A stretch of 64,000 nucleotides of DNA, from NCBI GenBank assembly GCA_903908065.1, contig CAIVQO010000048.1, forward strand, positions 1-64,000. The letters run 5' to 3'. Source of the DNA: an uncultured beta proteobacterium. GTDB lineage: Bacteria > Pseudomonadota > Gammaproteobacteria > Burkholderiales > Rhodocyclaceae. How positions within the stretch are numbered: position 1 is the first letter of the stretch; each line of letters starts with the position of its first letter. The notes under the pieces were generated by a model. It saw only the letters and a list, made by a program, of their open reading frames with translations, ran no database searches and was not told the origin of the DNA. Of this stretch, positions 2,333 to 61,073 are shown in pieces. The position numbers were made by a program, and so were the translations under genes.

Positions 2333-3934
2333 TCAGGCCTTGCGTGTGGCCAGGGGAGCGCCCCTCTTCGCAACAACCGGGCTTCCGATCGCCTTCGGTT
2401 TTGATGCCTTGGTTTTCGGCGCAATGGCCGCCGAGTCTTCACCGGCAATCGCCGCAGCCGGCTTTTTGGCGGATGATTTCGAAGACTTCGCGGTGGCAGA
2501 TTGCGCCGGCTTTCGCGACTTTGGCGGCGTCTTCGGTTTCGTCACCATCGCTGCCTCCAGCTCCGCCAGTGCATCTTCTGCATACACCGCCAGACGTTGC
2601 ATGCTCGGCAGCGATGCATGGCACCCGGTGAAACCGAAATTCATGGCCCCGGCATAGCTCTCGCAGGTGATGTTGAGGGCCTGACCGTGGGTGACGATCG
2701 ATGCCGGATAGATGGCGACGAGTTCGGCGCCGCGAAAGTACAGGGGCTTGTCCGGCCCGGGTACGTTGGAAATCGTGATGTTGAACATCGGTCGCGTGCG
2801 CCCGCCGATGCCGGCCAGCAGCGTCAGGATGGTCGGCGCCATGAGCAATACCGTGTATTGCATCATGGCCTGTTTGGGCAGGCTTTGCACATGCTCCTTG
2901 GCATGGCGTACCGACGCGCGGATGGCGGCCAGGCGCTCCCTGGCATCGGCAAGGTCGGTGCCCAAAGTGGCGATGATGAAGGTGATCGCATTGCCGCCGT
3001 CTTCATCGCCTGCTGGCCGCACCGAAACCGGAATGCCGGTGGTGAGCGACTTGTCCGGGAGGCCTCCGCGCTCCTCGAGGAAACGCCGCAGGGCGCCGCC
3101 GCAGATCGCCAGCACGACATCGTTGAGGGTGCAATCCGCCGCCGTTGCCAGATTGCGCAAACGCTCCATCGCGAATTGTTGCGTGGCGAAACGGCGCTTT
3201 TCCCGCACGCGGCCATTCAGTACCGACAGCGGCGATGTGAACGGCACCACCATGCCCTCACCGGTACCCAGCCCCTTGAGCATCTTGCCAAAGGCCACCA
3301 CCAATTGCGGCACCGTCCTGGCCTGTCCGCGCAGGGCATCCAGCGCCAGGGCGGCCGCGTTGGCGACGGTGGGCAACGGATGGTCCCTGCCGGAACGTGC
3401 CTCGCGCGGCATGCCCGAGGCCCAAAAAGGGGGCAGCTTCCAGCTTTTCTCGCGATCCGGCGACATCGCACGCTGCAACAGCTTCATGCCGCTGACACCA
3501 TCGATCAGCGAATGGTGCATCTTGACGAACAGCGCGAAGCGATCGCCCTCCAGGCCCTCGATGATGGTGCATTCCCAGGGCGGCCGACTGAGGTCGAGCG
3601 GCGTGCTCTGCAGGCGGCCGACCAGTTCGCCCAGTTCGCGCTCGCCACCCGGCCAGGGCAAGGCGGCATGTCGCACATGGTATTCCAGGTCGATATCCGT
3701 GTCCTCGATCCACACCGGCACCGGATTCTTGTTGAAGGCATACTTGAGGCGCCGGTTCCATGGCGCGGTGAATTCCCGATGGCCGCGAAACTCCGTCATC
3801 AGGCGCCGCATGTAATCCTTCGGGGCGCCCTCGGGCAGCTTGAACTGGAGCAGCCCGCCCACGTGGTTGGGCGTGGCGCGGCTCTCGGTGAACAGCCAGG
3901 CCGAGTCGAGCGGATTCAGGCGAACGGAAGTCAT
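2333..3934 (-). CDS. Wax ester synthase/diacylglycerol acyltransferase (WS/DGAT) homologue with basic C-terminal tail
   Basis: A 533-residue member of the WS/DGAT family, which joins acyl-CoA to fatty alcohols or diacylglycerol to make storage lipid at the inner membrane. The catalytic motif HHSLIDG lies at residues 140-146, and PLDLSRPPWECTII just before it is also typical. Family members are usually about 450-480 residues. The last 70 or so residues here (from about 465) form a low-complexity tail rich in Lys, Ala, Ser and Pro that is not part of the enzyme fold. The gene is convergent with dnaJ and followed in cis by no obvious lipid gene. With the phasin at 40.5 kb it suggests carbon storage. 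The lipid product cannot be told from sequence. Confidence 0.9.
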   Translation of the reverse strand: MTSVRLNPLDSAWLFTESRATPNHVGGLLQFKLPEGAPKDYMRRLMTEFRGHREFTAPWNRRLKYAFNKNPVPVWIEDTDIDLEYHVRHAALPWPGGERELGELVGRLQSTPLDLSRPPWECTIIEGLEGDRFALFVKMHHSLIDGVSGMKLLQRAMSPDREKSWKLPPFWASGMPREARSGRDHPLPTVANAAALALDALRGQARTVPQLVVAFGKMLKGLGTGEGMVVPFTSPLSVLNGRVREKRRFATQQFAMERLRNLATAADCTLNDVVLAICGGALRRFLEERGGLPDKSLTTGIPVSVRPAGDEDGGNAITFIIATLGTDLADARERLAAIRASVRHAKEHVQSLPKQAMMQYTVLLMAPTILTLLAGIGGRTRPMFNITISNVPGPDKPLYFRGAELVAIYPASIVTHGQALNITCESYAGAMNFGFTGCHASLPSMQRLAVYAEDALAELEAAMVTKPKTPPKSRKPAQSATAKSSKSSAKKPAAAIAGEDSAAIAPKTKASKPKAIGSPVVAKRGAPLATRKA

Positions 3935-13639: not shown

Positions 13640-14962
13640 TCACGCTGCGTTGCCCATCAGGGCATCGAAGGCGATGGAAGTTTCAGTCACCTTGGCACTG
13701 GCCAGCACCCAGGAAACCACGTTATTTTCCAGCGCCAGGGCCTCGGCTTCGGCCAGACGCTGCGGCTGGGAATAGTACCAGCGCACCACTTCCTTCGGGT
13801 CCTCGAAAGTCTCGGCGAATTCGTCGACGATGGCCCTTACCTGTTCGGGCTTGACGTGCAGGTCCTTGGCCTTGACCAGCTCGGCCAGCAACAGGCCCAG
13901 CTTGACGCGGCGCGCGGCCTGGTCGGTGAACCAGGACGCCTCGACCGGTATGTTCTTCATCATCATGCCGCGCTGCTCCATGTCGCGCTTGGCGGCCTCG
14001 GCCATCTGCTCCGATTCCATCTGCACCAGTGCCTTCGGCACCTCGATCGGATTGACCTTGAGCAGGGCATCCATCACCTGTTCCTTGACCTTGGCCAGCA
14101 GGCGCTTTTTCACTTCGCGCTCAAGGTTGGCACGCACTTCGGCACGCATCTTGGTCGTGTCGCCGTCGGCAACGCCGAGCTGCCTGGCGAACTCGGCATC
14201 AAGCTCGGGCACGACCGGGGCCTCGACCTTCTTCACCGTCATTTCGAACTGCACGGTGTTGCCGGCCAGTTCAGCGGCCTGGTAGTCAGCTGGGAAGGCT
14301 ACGTCGAAGGTCTTGTGATCCCCCACTTTGACGCCGATCAGCTGGGTCTCGAAATCCGGCAGCATCATGCCGCCACCCACCATCACGGTGTAGTCGCTGG
14401 CCTTGCCACCCTGGAACTCCTCGCCATCCTTGCGGCCGATGAAATCGATCACCAGGCGGTCGCCGTTCTCGGACGCACGATCGGTCGGGCTGTAGGTAGT
14501 GCGCTGCTTGCGCAGCACATCGAGCGTCTTGTCGACTTCCACGTCGGTGACGGTCAGGGTCGGCTTTTCGATCGATTCGCCGCTCACTTCGTTGAGGGTG
14601 ATTTCCGGATACACCTCGAAGATCGCGGTGAAGCCGAGCTGGCCCTCGCCGGCATCGGCCTTGGGCTCGATGCGCGGATAGCCGGCGACGCGCAGGTTCT
14701 GTTCGCGCACCTTCTCGCCATAGGCCTTTTCCACCGCCGCGCTGATCGCCTCCGAGCGCGCCTGGCCGCCGTATTGCTGGGCAACCATCTTCATCGGCAC
14801 CTTGCCGGGACGGAAACCCGCCATCTTCACCGAACGCGACATCTGCTTCAGGCGCTGGTCGACATCCTTCTCGATGTCCGCCAACACCACCGTCATGTCG
14901 ATGCGCCGTTCCAGCGCGCTCACCGTTTCCGTCGCCGCTGCCGTCGTTGCCGTTTCCGTCAT
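13640..14962 (-). CDS. tig: Trigger factor (ribosome-associated chaperone and prolyl isomerase)
   Basis: A 440-residue chaperone that meets nascent chains at the ribosome exit. The ribosome-binding signature appears as [12 protein letters not shown]. The central FKBP-like isomerase domain ([21 protein letters not shown]) and helical C-terminal domain ([20 protein letters not shown]) follow. The start at [20 protein letters not shown] is chosen because upstream in-frame sequence runs into tRNA-Leu. It is the first gene of the tig-clpP-clpX-lon block. Confidence 0.97.
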
Positions 14963-15301: not shown

Positions 15302-16138
15302 ATGGCCGTCGACCACTACGAGAACTTCCCCGTCGCCTCGATCCTGTTGCCGCCGCGCCTGCGCGAGCCGGTGGCGGCGATCTACTGGTTCGCCCGCAAT
15401 GCGGACGATTTCGCCGACGAGGGCGAGCGCAGCCCGGCGCAACGGCATGAACTGCTGGCCGGCTACCAGGCCGAACTCGACGCCATCGAGCGCAATGAAC
15501 CGACGCAGCACCCGGTGTTCCTCCGCCTGCGGCCGGTGATCGCCGAATATCGCCTGCCACTGCAGTTATTCCGCGACTTGCTCGATGCCTTCATCCAGGA
15601 CATCGACCAGGAACGCTATGCCGATTTCCCTGAGCTGATGGACTACTGCCGACGTTCCGCCAACCCGGTGGGGCGCCTGCTGCTGTATCTCTTCGGTCAG
15701 GCCTCGCCGCACAACCTGGATCGCTCGGATGCCATTTGTTCCGCCCTGCAACTGATCAACCACTGGCAGGATGTCGGCATCGACGCCGGCAAGAACGCCA
15801 ACGGCCGCATCTACCTGCCGCAGGACGACATGGCCCGCTTCGGCGTGCGCGATGGCGACGTGTTGCGCCGTATTGCCGACGCCGACTTCAAGGCCTTGCT
15901 GCGCTTCCAGGTCGAGCGCGCGCGGGCGCTGATGCTCTCCGGCGCCACCCTGGGCTGGGACCTGCCAGGCCGCATCGGCCTCGAAATCCGCGCCATCGTC
16001 ACCGGCGGCCTGCGCATCCTGGACAAGATCGAGGCCATCGACTACGAGGTCTTCACCCGCCGGCCACGCCTGCGCGGGCATGACTGGCCCCTGTTGATCT
16101 GGCGATCCCTGGTGCGCCCCGCCGGAGTAGCGACATGA
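15302..16138 (+). CDS. hpnC: Hydroxysqualene synthase HpnC (squalene/phytoene synthase family)
   Basis: A 278-residue trans-prenyltransferase. In the three-enzyme HpnCDE route, HpnD makes presqualene diphosphate from farnesyl diphosphate, HpnC converts it to hydroxysqualene and HpnE reduces that to squalene. The first Asp-rich region reads WFARNADDFADEGE and the second LQLINHWQDVGIDA, both at the positions used for diphosphate/Mg binding. The start MAVDHYENFPVAS is typical of HpnC. Its stop overlaps the hpnD start (ATGA), and the order hpnC-hpnD-hpnE is diagnostic. Confidence 0.94.
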   Translation: MAVDHYENFPVASILLPPRLREPVAAIYWFARNADDFADEGERSPAQRHELLAGYQAELDAIERNEPTQHPVFLRLRPVIAEYRLPLQLFRDLLDAFIQDIDQERYADFPELMDYCRRSANPVGRLLLYLFGQASPHNLDRSDAICSALQLINHWQDVGIDAGKNANGRIYLPQDDMARFGVRDGDVLRRIADADFKALLRFQVERARALMLSGATLGWDLPGRIGLEIRAIVTGGLRILDKIEAIDYEVFTRRPRLRGHDWPLLIWRSLVRPAGVAT

Positions 16139-16968
16139 GCCCTGACGACTACTGCCAGCAGCGCGCCGCGGCCAGCGGCTCCAGTTTCTATTACAGTTTT
16201 CTCTTCCTCGAACCGAAGCGGCGCCAGGCCATCACCGCGCTTTACGCCTTCTGCCGCGAGGTCGATGACGTGGTGGACGAGTGTCCCGACCCGCAAGTGG
16301 CGCGCACCAAGCTGGTTTGGTGGCGGGGCGAGGTACAAGCACTCTACGAAGGCCGCCCCAGCCACCCGGTCACCCAGGCGCTGATGGGCTCGCTGCGGCA
16401 ATTCTCGCTGCCACAGGAACAGCTGCAGGAAATCATCGACGGCATGGAGATGGACCTGGAGCAGGCGCGTTATCCCGATTTCAAGGCCCTTCACCTCTAC
16501 TGTTATCGCGTCGCCAGCGTGGTCGGCCTGCTCGCCGCCGAAATCTTCGGCTACACCGAGCGGCAGACCCTGAAGTACGCCCACGACCTCGGCCTGGCGT
16601 TCCAACTTACCAATATCATCCGCGATGTGGGCGAAGATGCCCGACGCGGCCGCGTCTACTTGCCGCAGGACGAACTGCAGCGCTTCGGTGTCAGCGCTGA
16701 CGACCTTCTCAACGCCCGTTATGGCGAGAACTTCCGCCGCCTGATGGCCTTCCAGGTCGAGCGGGCGCGCGACATGTATGCGCAGGCCTTCGCCCAGCTT
16801 CCCGCTGCCGATCGCAAGGCGCAACGCGCCGGCCTGATCATGGCGGCGATTTACCAGGCCACCCTCAACGAAATCGTGCGCGACGACTACCGCGTGCTCG
16901 ACCAGCGCATCTCCCTGCCGCCCCTGCGCAAGCTCTGGTTGGCGGCAAAGACCTGGTTTTCCGCATGA
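16135..16968 (+). CDS. hpnD: Presqualene diphosphate synthase HpnD
   Basis: A 277-residue squalene/phytoene synthase family enzyme that condenses two farnesyl diphosphates into presqualene diphosphate. The N-terminus GSSFYYSFLFLEPKRRQAITALYAFCREVDDVVDE holds the first Asp-rich motif DDVVDE, and the second is LTNIIRDVGEDARRGRVYLP. Both are intact, unlike the altered first motif of HpnC. ATGA overlaps at both ends (with hpnC and hpnE) indicate translational coupling. Confidence 0.95.
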   Translation: MSPDDYCQQRAAASGSSFYYSFLFLEPKRRQAITALYAFCREVDDVVDECPDPQVARTKLVWWRGEVQALYEGRPSHPVTQALMGSLRQFSLPQEQLQEIIDGMEMDLEQARYPDFKALHLYCYRVASVVGLLAAEIFGYTERQTLKYAHDLGLAFQLTNIIRDVGEDARRGRVYLPQDELQRFGVSADDLLNARYGENFRRLMAFQVERARDMYAQAFAQLPAADRKAQRAGLIMAAIYQATLNEIVRDDYRVLDQRISLPPLRKLWLAAKTWFSA

Positions 16969-57244: not shown

Positions 57245-58800
57245 CAGAAGATCACGTCGCGGTTGAGGATCATCGCCGGGTCGGCCTTGCGTTTCATCGC
57301 CAGGTGGCGGTCCACCAGCGCATCGCCGAAGACGCGGCGGATGTAACCCTTCATCATGCCGCCGAAGCGGTAATAGCTCGCACCCATGTCCACGCCGATG
57401 TCGTAGATGGCATTCTTGAAGGACTGGAAGTGGTCGCGGCTGTACACCTCGCCCTCGATCATCGGCTCGAACTCGCAGCCGTAGGCCCAGCCCTCGGCGC
57501 CAGGCGGGATGCAGCTCATTTCGTAATGCGCCGCGTGGTCGGCGCGCAGCTTGATGCCGACGCAGTAGAGCGTGTAGTGGCGGAAATATTTGCGGCACAC
57601 CGCATTGCCGCGCTCGACCGCCTCGACGAACTTGTCCGCCGTGGTGGCGAGGTCGGGAATCACCATGTTGCGCGAGCCCCAGTGCTTCCACACCGCGCGC
57701 GAGAAGACCACGGTGCGGTCGTCCATGCGCCCGTCGCGATGGAACTCGGGTCGGCGGAACTCGGGGAACACCGCCTGCTTGCGTTTCAGCAGGTAGAGCG
57801 CCTCGCCCAGCCGCCAGGGTCGGCGCGCATAGTGGCCGACCATGCACAGGGCGAAGCCGAATTCGCCGTGGCCACGCAGTTGCTTTTCCCAGTTCGCCTT
57901 GAAGGCCGCCTCGCGCTCGGCGGAATCAAAGGCCACCAGCAGGTTCACGGCGCAGTCCATGATGGTCAGGATGCCCGAGTAGTCGCTGGCGTCGTTACGG
58001 TCCAGCAGCTGCAAATCATCGATCGCCTCACGCAGCGTCGAGTAGTAGTAGTAATGCATGGAGAGCGGCGTGTAGGGCCGGATCTTCAGCGTCGCCTCGG
58101 TGATCACGCCGAACTGGCCGTAGCCGAGGATCACGCGCTGGAAGAGCTCCGCGTTCTCGCTGTCGGAACATTCGACGATCTCGCCGGTGGGCGTCACCAC
58201 CTGCAGCGCAATCGCCTGGTCGGCGCTGCAACCCAAGCGCGCCGAATTCACGTCGATGCCGCCAACACCCAGGGTGCCGCCGACGGACGAGGTCATGTTG
58301 AGCGGCGCGGAGAGGTAATCGAGGCCCTCGCGGCGCAGTTCTTCCGCCAGGCCATGCCAATAGATGCCCGCCTCGGTACGTACCGTCATGGCCGCGCGAT
58401 CGATCGTCAGCACCCGGCTCATGCCGGTCATGTCGAGCAGCACGCCGCCGTAGGCCACGGATTCGCCCTCGGTGGTCAGCCCGCCGCCGCGTGCCGTGAC
58501 CGGTACCCGGTGGGCCTGCGCCGCCCTGAGCAAGACGGCGACCTGGGCCGCGCTGCGCGCCACCACCACGCCATGCGGCATGCCGTAGGCCGTGCCACCG
58601 GCATCGGTGGCGAAGATGCCCCGTGCCGAGGCGCTTTCGGCGACGTCGACACCCGCCGTGCGCAATTCGGCGACAAAGCCCGGCCAGCCCTCGCCGTTCC
58701 AGCGCGCGGGATTGGTCTGCTGACGGACGATGCCCTGCAGGGCGTCAGGCGCCACCGGGCAGGGGCCGACGGTGCCGGGTTCGACGAGTGGAATGTCCAA
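57244..58800 (-). CDS. FAD-binding oxidoreductase (PCMH type, cytokinin-dehydrogenase/GlcD-like)
   Basis: A 518-residue flavoprotein. The PCMH FAD-binding domain is seen in GVVVARSAAQVAVLLRAAQAHRVPVTARGGGLTTEGES, then SSVGGTLGVGGIDVNSARLG and VVTPTGEIVECSDSENAELFQRVILGYGQFGVITEATLKIRP. The last segment resembles cytokinin-dehydrogenase and related oxidases. The His that carries covalent FAD in those enzymes (RGHS) is absent here, implying non-covalent FAD. The start is TTG at 58800: an in-frame stop lies 8 codons upstream, and no ATG occurs for 73 codons. Substrate unknown. Confidence 0.82.
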   Translation of the reverse strand: MDIPLVEPGTVGPCPVAPDALQGIVRQQTNPARWNGEGWPGFVAELRTAGVDVAESASARGIFATDAGGTAYGMPHGVVVARSAAQVAVLLRAAQAHRVPVTARGGGLTTEGESVAYGGVLLDMTGMSRVLTIDRAAMTVRTEAGIYWHGLAEELRREGLDYLSAPLNMTSSVGGTLGVGGIDVNSARLGCSADQAIALQVVTPTGEIVECSDSENAELFQRVILGYGQFGVITEATLKIRPYTPLSMHYYYYSTLREAIDDLQLLDRNDASDYSGILTIMDCAVNLLVAFDSAEREAAFKANWEKQLRGHGEFGFALCMVGHYARRPWRLGEALYLLKRKQAVFPEFRRPEFHRDGRMDDRTVVFSRAVWKHWGSRNMVIPDLATTADKFVEAVERGNAVCRKYFRHYTLYCVGIKLRADHAAHYEMSCIPPGAEGWAYGCEFEPMIEGEVYSRDHFQSFKNAIYDIGVDMGASYYRFGGMMKGYIRRVFGDALVDRHLAMKRKADPAMILNRDVIF

Positions 58801-58869
58801 GGGAAGCGATCCAAACCAAAATCAGCGGGAATGATAACCCGCGCCACGCAGCAAGGCTTTCACGCAACA

Positions 58870-58895
58870 AAAAAGCGCCCCGAAGAGCGCTTTTT
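58870..58895. terminator. Hairpin terminator, probably the original tRNA-Asp terminator
   Basis: Arms AAAAAGCGC/GCGCTTTTT with an 8-base loop, A- and T-flanked, so usable on both strands. On the minus strand it sits just past the left tRNA-Asp repeat. Before the element inserted it would have followed tRNA-Asp directly. Confidence 0.8.
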
Positions 58896-58902
58896 CATTC
58901 TT

Positions 58903-58927
58903 ATGCGTGGCGGAGTGGACGGGACTC
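58903..58927. repeat. Left 25-bp attachment-site repeat (displaced tRNA-Asp end)
   Basis: Starts ATGCGTGGCGGAG and ends GGACGGGACTC, identical over 25 bases to the right copy. Both flanks then diverge. Confidence 0.9.
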
Positions 58928-58986
58928 TCCGACAAGTCACCTCCGAACCCTTACTACTGCGTATATAAAGGCCTCCAAGGGTATCG

Positions 58987-59011
58987 CGTGTGGTAAAAGC
59001 GTGTGGTAAAT
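58987..59011. repeat. Left arm-type repeat pair
   Basis: Two copies of CGTGTGGTAAA spaced 13 bases (start to start), ending AAAT. The 25-bp unit matches the right-end unit at 24 positions, in direct orientation. Likely integrase arm-binding sites. Confidence 0.7.
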
Positions 59012-59044
59012 TGGGTTCCTGCCTAAGCCACTTTACCCCTCATC

Positions 59045-60160
59045 ATGTCCCATTTAGAACGCAGACGGAACCTTTGGTACGCCCGCCTGACCGTCCCCGT
59101 TGATGCCCGGGGCAAGCTGGGGAAATTCCGATTCTTCCAATCCTTGGGCACCCCCGACAAAGCGGAGGCGAAAATTCTGGCTGCCCCTCTGGTCGCCAAG
59201 TGGAAGGCCACCATCAGGCAAGCACGGGGGGTATCGAACGCCCTCCACGATGAGGCCCAGCGGTGGCGACAAGCCCTCAAGGAACAAGCCACGACAGACC
59301 GGCAGATGGGCGACGAGGATGGCATGGGCACATTGGAGCTACATGAACATCTTCAAAACCGTGAGGAACACATCCGCAGAACGAAGGGGCCTGAAGTTGC
59401 CGATACCTTTGGTGGACTCGTTGAGGGCAAGCTGACTCCAACAGATAGCCATCGCGAGGCATGGGAAAGCCAACTTGACGCCACACCCAAGACCAAGGAC
59501 CAGATGAAGAAGGACTTGCTCATTCTCATCGCCAGGTTCAGCACCCTTGAGGGCATCACCAAGAGTTCGGTAAAGAAATGGGTCGAGGCCATGAAGGCAG
59601 AGGGTAAATCTCACGCCACCCTTGATCGCATTTTTGTGGCTGCCCGTAACTACTGGCGCTACCTGCAGGCCCACGATGTGGTCCCCATGGAACTGACGCC
59701 ATTCAAGGGAGCCCTAGAACTCGGAAAGGCAGCCGACACCAAGGCCAAGAAGAGAGGAAAGTCCGCAAACCTCCCATACGATCCAAAGGAGGTCGTTAGT
59801 CTGTACAAGGCAGCTGTAGCCGGCCGGGGAGTTCGCCCCTCTCCTGACCCTGAGTTAGCCGCGTTGATCAAGCTGGGTGCTTACACGGGCGCACGGATCG
59901 AAGAACTATGTTCCATCGAGGTATCTCAGATCAAAAAAGGTACCTTCTACATCGAAGATGCAAAGACCCCGGCAGGCGTTCGAGAGGTTCCCATACATAG
60001 CAAGCTGGCCGATCTGGTGAATTCGCTCGTGAAGAAAGGCACCCCAGCAGGGGAAACCTCTCGATCCGATCACCATCTGGTGGGACGGGAAGGGGTGGGC
60101 ATGCGTGGATGGGCATCACAGGATCGCTGCTTATCAGCAGGCAGGCTGGGCCGAACGTGA
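59045..60160 (+). pseudogene. int: Tyrosine recombinase/integrase, catalytic C-terminus deleted
   Basis: A 371-codon frame. Residues 1-335 look like a phage/island tyrosine integrase: N-terminal arm-binding region (MSHLERRRNLWYARLTVP, FRFFQSLGTPDKAEAKILAAPLVAKW), core-binding domain, and start of the catalytic domain with Arg284 (GAYTGARIEELCSIEV) and Lys at about 308 (IEDAKTPAGVREVPIH). After about residue 339 the sequence turns to out-of-frame junk; the HxxR box and the nucleophilic tyrosine are missing. A deletion fused it to a ParB-like gene. It should be inactive. Confidence 0.85.
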
Positions 60161-60653
60161 CGTCCCAGTTGAAGCCTTCAGTGGAACCCTTGAGGATGCC
60201 ATCGCAAGGGCAGCCAAAGGCAATACGCGGGACAAGCTGTCGATGAGCAGCAGGGAGAAAACTGAAACCGCTTGGCGGCTTACCACCACCGAGCCACCCT
60301 ACTCAAAGGCCACAGTGGTGGATATCTCGGGAGTAAGCGATGGGACGGTTGCTTCGATGCGGAGAGTAAAGGCGATGCTTCTCAAGAAGAACTCCGAGCA
60401 TGATCTTAGTGACCTCACTTGGAGAAGCGCTCGAATGCTTGCGGAGGGGAAGGCCGACGAAGAAATCAACTGGGAGGAGCAGACTGAAAAGGAGGCCCAA
60501 GACCTCGCCAAACTACTTGTGCGGCACCTTGGCAAGCGGGGGTACCAACGTCGTGAAGCCTTTGCGAGAGCCTTGGAGATTTACGACGCTACTCTCCCCG
60601 GTTTTCTTCAAGAGCACTGGGAGTTGAACGCACAGGAAGACGAGGGGTAGCGT
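60048..60653 (+). pseudogene. ParB-like nuclease-domain protein, N-terminus lost
   Basis: A coding remnant in a different frame from the integrase. In-frame residues before the first usable start read LDPITIWWDGKGWACVDGHHRIAAYQQAGW, containing the ParB/sulfiredoxin motif GHHRIAAY. A possible GTG start at 60105 gives a 181-residue product. It continues with a helix-turn-helix-like KATVVDISGVSDGTVASMRRVKAM and a charged C-terminus. The N-terminal part is absent and the junction with the integrase lies near 60045-60060, indicating one deletion event. Confidence 0.75.
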
Positions 60654-60681
60654 TCGGGATCAGGCTATGCATCCTTATAGC

Positions 60682-60695
60682 TATGCAATTGCATA
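60682..60695. repeat. 14-bp palindrome in the element
   Basis: TATGCAATTGCATA, a perfect palindrome with a related CTATGCAT 18 bases earlier. Possible operator or excision-factor site. Weak evidence. Confidence 0.3.
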
Positions 60696-60775
60696 CCCGT
60701 AGTGCCGCCGACCCGCCCTTCTCCGAAGCAATCGGGGGCTAACAGGGCGGGAAAGGACGCCTTGCGGGAGGCAAA

Positions 60776-60800
60776 CGTGTGGTAAAAACGTGTGGTAAAT
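60776..60800. repeat. Right arm-type repeat pair
   Basis: Two copies of CGTGTGGTAAA, ending AAAT, matching the left unit at 24 of 25 bases in the same orientation. It lies 56 bases inside the right att repeat; the left unit lies 59 bases inside the left repeat. Confidence 0.7.
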
Positions 60801-60804
60801 AAGA

Positions 60805-60852
60805 AAACCCTGATCTCGCCAACCTATTGAGTTGCTTGAGAAATCAGGGTTT
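60805..60852 (-). terminator. Element-borne terminator for tRNA-Asp
   Basis: On the minus strand, just after tRNA-Asp, AAACCCTGAT pairs with ATCAGGGTTT (with an extra CTC/GAG pairing) and is followed by a T-rich run. It probably replaces the original terminator left at 58870-58895. Confidence 0.7.
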
Positions 60853-60856
60853 ATCG

Positions 60857-60881
60857 ATGCGTGGCGGAGTGGACGGGACTC
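60857..60881. repeat. Right 25-bp attachment-site repeat (within intact tRNA-Asp)
   Basis: Identical to 58903-58927. It covers the encoded CCA, acceptor 3' strand and T-arm of tRNA-Asp plus five flanking bases, a common target of tyrosine integrases. Confidence 0.9.
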
Positions 60882-60938
60882 GAACCCGCGACCCCCGGCG
60901 TGACAGGCCGGTATTCTAACCAACTGAACTACCACTCC
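60862..60938 (-). tRNA. tRNA-Asp (anticodon GTC)
   Basis: A 77-base tRNA on the minus strand, starting GGAGTGGTAGTTCAG, acceptor GGAGTGG/CCACTCC, anticodon loop CTGTCAC (GTC, aspartate), ending GCCA with encoded CCA. Its 3' end is the integration target of the adjacent element, and the restored sequence keeps the tRNA whole. Confidence 0.96.
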
Positions 60939-61073
60939 CCGCTGAAGAGGCGCGCATTCTGCCACAGGGATGCGGTCCGTGCAAGAAATCTTGCGCCTGA
61001 TCGTCGAAGCGCTTGACTTCACATGCCGGGCAGGCTGCAATTCCGGTCTTTCGCCCACTGTTTCGAGGAAGCC

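Follow-up and report, generated by a model that had tools for sequence, protein, structure and literature searches.

A small integrative element at tRNA-Asp in a Rhodocyclaceae genome, probably reduced by internal deletion to its cis sites

We describe a site-specific insertion at a tRNA-Asp gene, accompanied by empty sites in related genomes, a fusion between two genes and retained candidate cis sites. The insertion is found in a 64,000-nucleotide stretch of contig CAIVQO010000048.1 from an uncultured beta proteobacterium, which in full we call the window. We are confident that it began as an integrative element with a DUF6538 tyrosine integrase, that it then suffered an internal deletion, and that what is now present is a cis-only derivative. 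The features are collected in Table 1.

Table 1. Features of the tRNA-Asp insertion, with window coordinates and the evidence for each.
Feature	Position	Strand	Evidence
Host hairpin, probable original tRNA-Asp terminator, now parted from the tRNA by the insertion	58870..58895	-	Fold and empty sites
attL, left repeat copy	58903..58927		Repeat comparison
Probable core site, an imperfect inverted repeat, TGGCGGA-N13-TCCGACA	58908..58934		By eye; role inferred
Probable arm sites on the left, two copies of GTGTGGTAA at 13-bp spacing	58988..59009	+	Pattern search
Truncated tyrosine integrase, residues 1-331 (frame continues to 60160)	59045..60037	+	Domain and homology search
Candidate junction of the deletion, AAGAAAGG, at the meeting point of the integrase and ParB-like homologies	60032..60039		Homology ends
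C-terminal 204 residues of a ParB-like protein; about 64 residues lost at its N-terminus	60036..60650	+	Homology
Right pair of probable arm sites, orientation and spacing as left pair	60777..60798	+	Pattern search
Element-borne hairpin beside the tRNA, possible substitute terminator	60805..60852	-	Fold and relatives
attR, right repeat copy, 20 bp of it the tRNA-Asp 3′ end	60857..60881		Repeat comparison and tRNA position
tRNA-Asp (gtc), insertion target, intact	60862..60938	-	tRNA call, Rfam

The first-pass annotation had noticed two identical 25-bp repeats around about 2 kb of lower-GC DNA, and both observations hold. The direct repeats are identical and bound an insertion of 1954 bp, and the 25-bp sequence has no further match in the window at up to 3 mismatches (0 in 100 shuffles). 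Between them the GC content is 55.9%; the 10 kb on the left side have 65.7% and the 3 kb on the right side 67.3%. The right copy was also said to be the real 3′ end of tRNA-Asp, and the position of the tRNA gene on the minus strand bears this out, since 20 bp of the repeat are its 3′ end and the other 5 bp lie beyond. This 5-bp overshoot (58903-58907 and 60857-60861) would arise by chance about 1 in 1000 times by our own arithmetic; the overshoot is 0 bp in the related elements L043 and L046, 1 bp in L050 and 3 bp in L048. Besides the tRNA, an Rfam search at E values up to 1 returned a single CRISPR-repeat match, below threshold and not within the element, and a simple scan of 58800-61050 found no promoter-like site.

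The proposed insertion into a tRNA gene is further supported by empty sites in the same genus. We searched the region against 61 genomes, the window's own included, and in several same-genus genomes the match to the left flank (58870-58927) and the match to the tRNA overlap by the core. In five of these (L012, L013, L016, L018 and L020) a hairpin matching the host hairpin follows tRNA-Asp directly, as had been predicted, and the left-flank piece is 80-83% identical. The same prediction placed an FAD oxidase gene next, which is true in part: the gene lies at about 145 bp in L016 and L020 and is not adjacent in the other three. It starts about 0.9-1.0 kb beyond tRNA-Asp in L013 and L018, and in L012 (L051) it was not found within the 4.9 kb that extend to the contig end. 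The gene is within 1.5 kb of tRNA-Asp at 13 of 23 same-genus loci; nine of the ten loci lacking it offered 1.5 kb on that side and one offered 0.73 kb. One further candidate empty site (G006:C206), on a contig with partial tRNA copies only, was set aside.

Relatives that lack the integrase, yet carry both repeats and the intervening DNA, had been named as a case that would speak against insertion. Element DNA was found in none of the 30 other genomes of the genus, many of them incomplete. Only 13 of the 31 genus genomes combine a completeness of 90% or more with a contamination of 5% or less, which makes some of these absences weak. A spreading mini-element was rejected as an explanation: the window's own genome is the one in 31 with element DNA, and every arm array that we found is in an integrase-positive genome.

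The tRNA-Asp gene seems to be targeted by other islands in the genus. Partial copies of its 3′ end, of about 47-50 bp, lie beside host-type hairpins at L056 4974 (G006), L085 9775 (G027) and L087 7551 (G007). All three genomes have a fuller tRNA-Asp match elsewhere, and in G027 the pair is about 85 kb apart on one contig. At L056 6780 a second, shorter copy of the core lies 1.8 kb from the first, behind a similar hairpin, as in a tandem insertion. At L086 7210 (G005) the tRNA-Asp match ends about 57 bp in from the 3′ end, with the 5′ part missing or replaced, and an aldehyde dehydrogenase gene still follows.

Beside the left repeat, the start of a tyrosine integrase had been proposed, and we agree with this assignment. 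The ORF at 59045-60160 matches DUF6538 and the first half of Phage_integrase above the Pfam cut-offs, with a SAM-like domain just under. Full-length relatives (L043-L046) have 417-438 aa, and the homology to them extends to about residue 331. The identity is 50% over approximately 331 residues for L033, L034 and L035, and 41-52% for L043, L044, L046 and G186. The first catalytic arginine is kept; the catalytic HxxR and GHxx..Tyr boxes, which a motif search places at residues 374 and 399 in L043, are missing. The last 40 or so residues of the frame align weakly to real integrases, up to residue 370 in G186 (L047). We regard this alignment as fortuitous: read in a different frame, these bases give strong matches to ParB-like proteins, and the relatives other than L047 stop at 330-333.

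Within a few bases of this point the integrase is fused to the ParB-like part, whose match begins at about 60036. The relatives found for this part are 269-281 aa long, and it is 63-67% identical to those of 272 aa (L048) and 269 aa (L059). The name ParB-like comes from one PHROG match (phrog_1033, E 0.0013); the part had no match in Pfam or NCBIfam, and the L048 protein had none among solved structures. The two homologies meet in AAGAAAGG, as expected of a short-homology deletion, and this is the putative junction. The first-pass annotation spoke of decay to a very small remnant. It is a remnant, although the lack of stop codons in both retained gene parts is better explained by a single clean deletion inside the element than by gradual erosion. 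These homologies suggest that the element is an internal-deletion derivative. Four points go beyond the earlier annotation: where the integrase is cut, the remnant of the ParB-like gene, the arm sites and the hairpin of the element itself.

A phage or plasmid origin was considered and rejected, as neither protein matched phage records and the ParB-like part had no match in plasmid records; for the integrase, matches of 27-31% identity came from four plasmid records. Three protein scans of viral contigs gave no confirmed relative, and these contigs had no match to the arm array. The word DUF6538 was not found in the literature searched.

The probable cis sites survive at both ends. At attL the sequence TGGCGGA-N13-TCCGACA is the probable core site of the integrase; by eye, TGGCGGA-N13-TCCG is present in five of six relatives (L043, L044, L045, L046 and L047), and L066 has a spacer of N12. 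Near each end there is a pair of GTGTGGTAA motifs at 13-bp spacing, all in one orientation (0 in 100 shuffles), and an array of this motif is also found upstream of the integrase in L043, L044, L046 and L047. Of 199 family genomes, a sample that includes 6 of the genus, five have the paired pattern and all five are integrase-positive; a reversed-pattern control gave 0. Four of the five have two arrays and G201 has one. The sixth integrase-positive genome, G112, carries a different repeat at the arm position.

The tRNA may also have acquired a new terminator. The insertion parts tRNA-Asp from its own hairpin (58868-58902, minus strand; fold -16.4 kcal/mol, z -3.8), which a simple terminator scan flagged on the plus strand only. 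For this reason the element-borne hairpin (60795-60862, minus strand; -22.8 kcal/mol, z -4.8) may be a substitute. A similar hairpin is found in the same place beside the tRNA in L043 (z -7.2), L044 (z -4.8) and, by eye, G186. The simple scan, whose loops are of 3-8 bases only, missed the element hairpin.

Fuller relatives are 7-17 kb long and lie in tRNA-Ser. For example, L043 is 7.3 kb with a 17-bp repeat at tRNA-Ser gga, and its cargo includes a type II methyltransferase, a restriction enzyme, Vsr, a resolvase, a Bro-N protein and RNase H. L044 also adjoins tRNA-Ser gga and has similar ORFs by eye, and no att repeat of at least 13 bp was found there. L046 is at tRNA-Ser cga with a 17-bp repeat, and G186, with about 16.8 kb between its arrays, adjoins tRNA-Ser gga. 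The integrase of G186 (L047) is in two pieces (3225-3767 and 14036-14596) separated by about 10 kb, as though the gene had been interrupted by another element. L043, L044 and G186 share one order: attL, arms, inward-facing integrase, cargo, arms, hairpin and tRNA. The stretches examined of G112 and G375 show no tRNA, and their attL resembles the end of a tRNA-Ser.

Thus tRNA-Ser is used by the four relatives with a tRNA in view, and tRNA-Asp by the window copy. We do not treat this target as defining for the group, since a distant integrase relative (G955, L083) lies beside a tmRNA (15972-16331), a third kind of target; no such arm motif was found there on the strand searched. The tRNA-Ser end of L043, TGGCGGAGAGGGCGGGA, and the tRNA-Asp end of the window, TGGCGGAGTGGACGGGA, differ at 2 of 17 positions, which makes the change of target by one integrase family testable.

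The integrase was detected in 6 of 199 family genomes (E 1e-20), 3 of 399 in the order (1e-30) and 2 of 369 in the class (1e-50), and the ParB-like protein in 4 of 199 in the family (1e-5) and 6 of 399 in the order (1e-15); these samples overlap and each count includes the window's own genome. A search of genome contigs returned two ParB-like loci. The window's genome alone is in both lists. Among the genomes examined, the two genes were never found together in one intact element, and the parent element is therefore inferred. No relaxase or mating gene was found among the subset of ORFs from L043, L044, L046 and L048 that was searched against family libraries. The ParB-like protein of L048 belongs to a 5.7-kb element at tRNA-Ser gct with a 584 aa DUF6538 integrase, and that of L050 to an element with a 560 aa integrase (by eye), next to tRNA-Ser. 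A trio of a resolvase, a protein of 204-231 aa and a ParB-like protein recurs in small integrative elements (L048 9581-11815 and L059 8419-10549). The L048 copy of the middle protein has no Pfam or NCBIfam match, and the L059 members were assigned by eye.

We propose the following history. A small element with a DUF6538 tyrosine integrase entered tRNA-Asp at its 3′ end; it restored the end of the tRNA and carried in a hairpin, which from its position possibly replaced the host terminator. A deletion, of which the gene fusion is the trace, then probably ran from within the integrase to within the ParB-like gene near the other end, presumably as a single short-homology event. The remainder is a cis-only derivative, with probable core and arm sites and no working integrase. 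Such an element is probably unable to excise by itself, and in principle an incoming integrase of the same specificity could move it in trans. The element, the integrase and the ParB pieces are single copy, and no second copy or helper was found in the same genome. No other DUF6538 protein was found there either, and the element is therefore probably stranded.

An alternative history, which we regard as unlikely, begins with two tandem elements at tRNA-Asp, an integrase-bearing one on the left and a ParB-bearing one on the right, that were joined by recombination. This would account for the fact that the ParB relatives in L048 and L050 sit with a different, larger integrase next to tRNA-Ser and that, the window's genome excepted, no genome is positive for both proteins; the other islands at tRNA-Asp in the genus point the same way. 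However, the same arm array is found at both ends of the window element, its right-end hairpin is shared with integrase relatives, and the ParB-bearing loci (L048, L049, L050 and L059) contain no GTGTGGTAA.

Two functional readings appear less probable still. We doubt that tRNA-targeted integrases have a MITE-like counterpart here, a miniature that is non-autonomous and moved by related passing integrases; such an element would have been kept small while retaining a full set of integrase sites, a tRNA terminator of its own and an arm-binding protein that is catalytically dead. It is very unlikely that the truncated integrase is retained for a function of its own, e.g. binding arm sites and blocking incoming integrases. 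The 331 codons without a stop and the presence of the N-terminal DUF6538 and SAM-like parts are compatible with this, yet a recent deletion accounts equally well for the open frames, the ParB part is open too, and the truncated form is in no second genome of the genus. Finally, the junction is known from one draft assembly of 103 contigs, and an intact longer element could have been collapsed or misjoined, which is highly improbable given that the pieces are single copy, that the homologies meet over only a few bases and that the C-terminus of the L043 integrase was unmatched elsewhere in the assembly (in a search without a positive control).

With an internal deletion as the preferred reading, the element is an ordinary kind of bacterial mobile-element remnant, and a clear case of one. 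Two points are mildly new: the cis anatomy is seen in full, and a single integrase family uses both tRNA-Ser and tRNA-Asp. The result is a compact view of the cis parts of this integrase type, with a core, 13-bp-spaced arms on both sides and a possible terminator hairpin.

Lambda-type tyrosine recombinase systems have a core inverted repeat and arm-type sites on both sides. The window element has this layout too, and the L043 integrase matches a lambda integrase chain weakly (E 0.0006). The window element differs in that it is small, its arms are in tandem at 13-bp spacing and the catalytic C-terminus is absent.

The element also resembles the small tRNA-targeted DUF6538-type elements described above (L043, L044, L046 and G186), for which we found no name. 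These share the integrase, the arm arrays, the core layout, the tRNA-side hairpin (L043, L044 and, by eye, G186) and tandem GTGTGGTAA arms at both ends, the last not being universal (one full array in G201, a different repeat in G112). In contrast to the window copy, they are in tRNA-Ser, their integrase is full length except for the divided one of G186, and they have cargo genes, which in L043 include a type II restriction-modification set.

As a kind of remnant, the element is like a CIME. In the definition given in PMC5704250, a CIME is a decayed ICE or IME in which attL and attR persist and the integration gene is gone. The window element likewise retains attL and attR as a perfect repeat, and its integrase is broken, ending at residue 331 with the HxxR and Tyr boxes absent. 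It differs in that the part of the relatives' ORFs that was searched yielded no recognisable gene for conjugation or mobilisation, and descent from an ICE or IME is putative. By this analogy, the element would work like a CIME, a known kind of mobile-element derivative.
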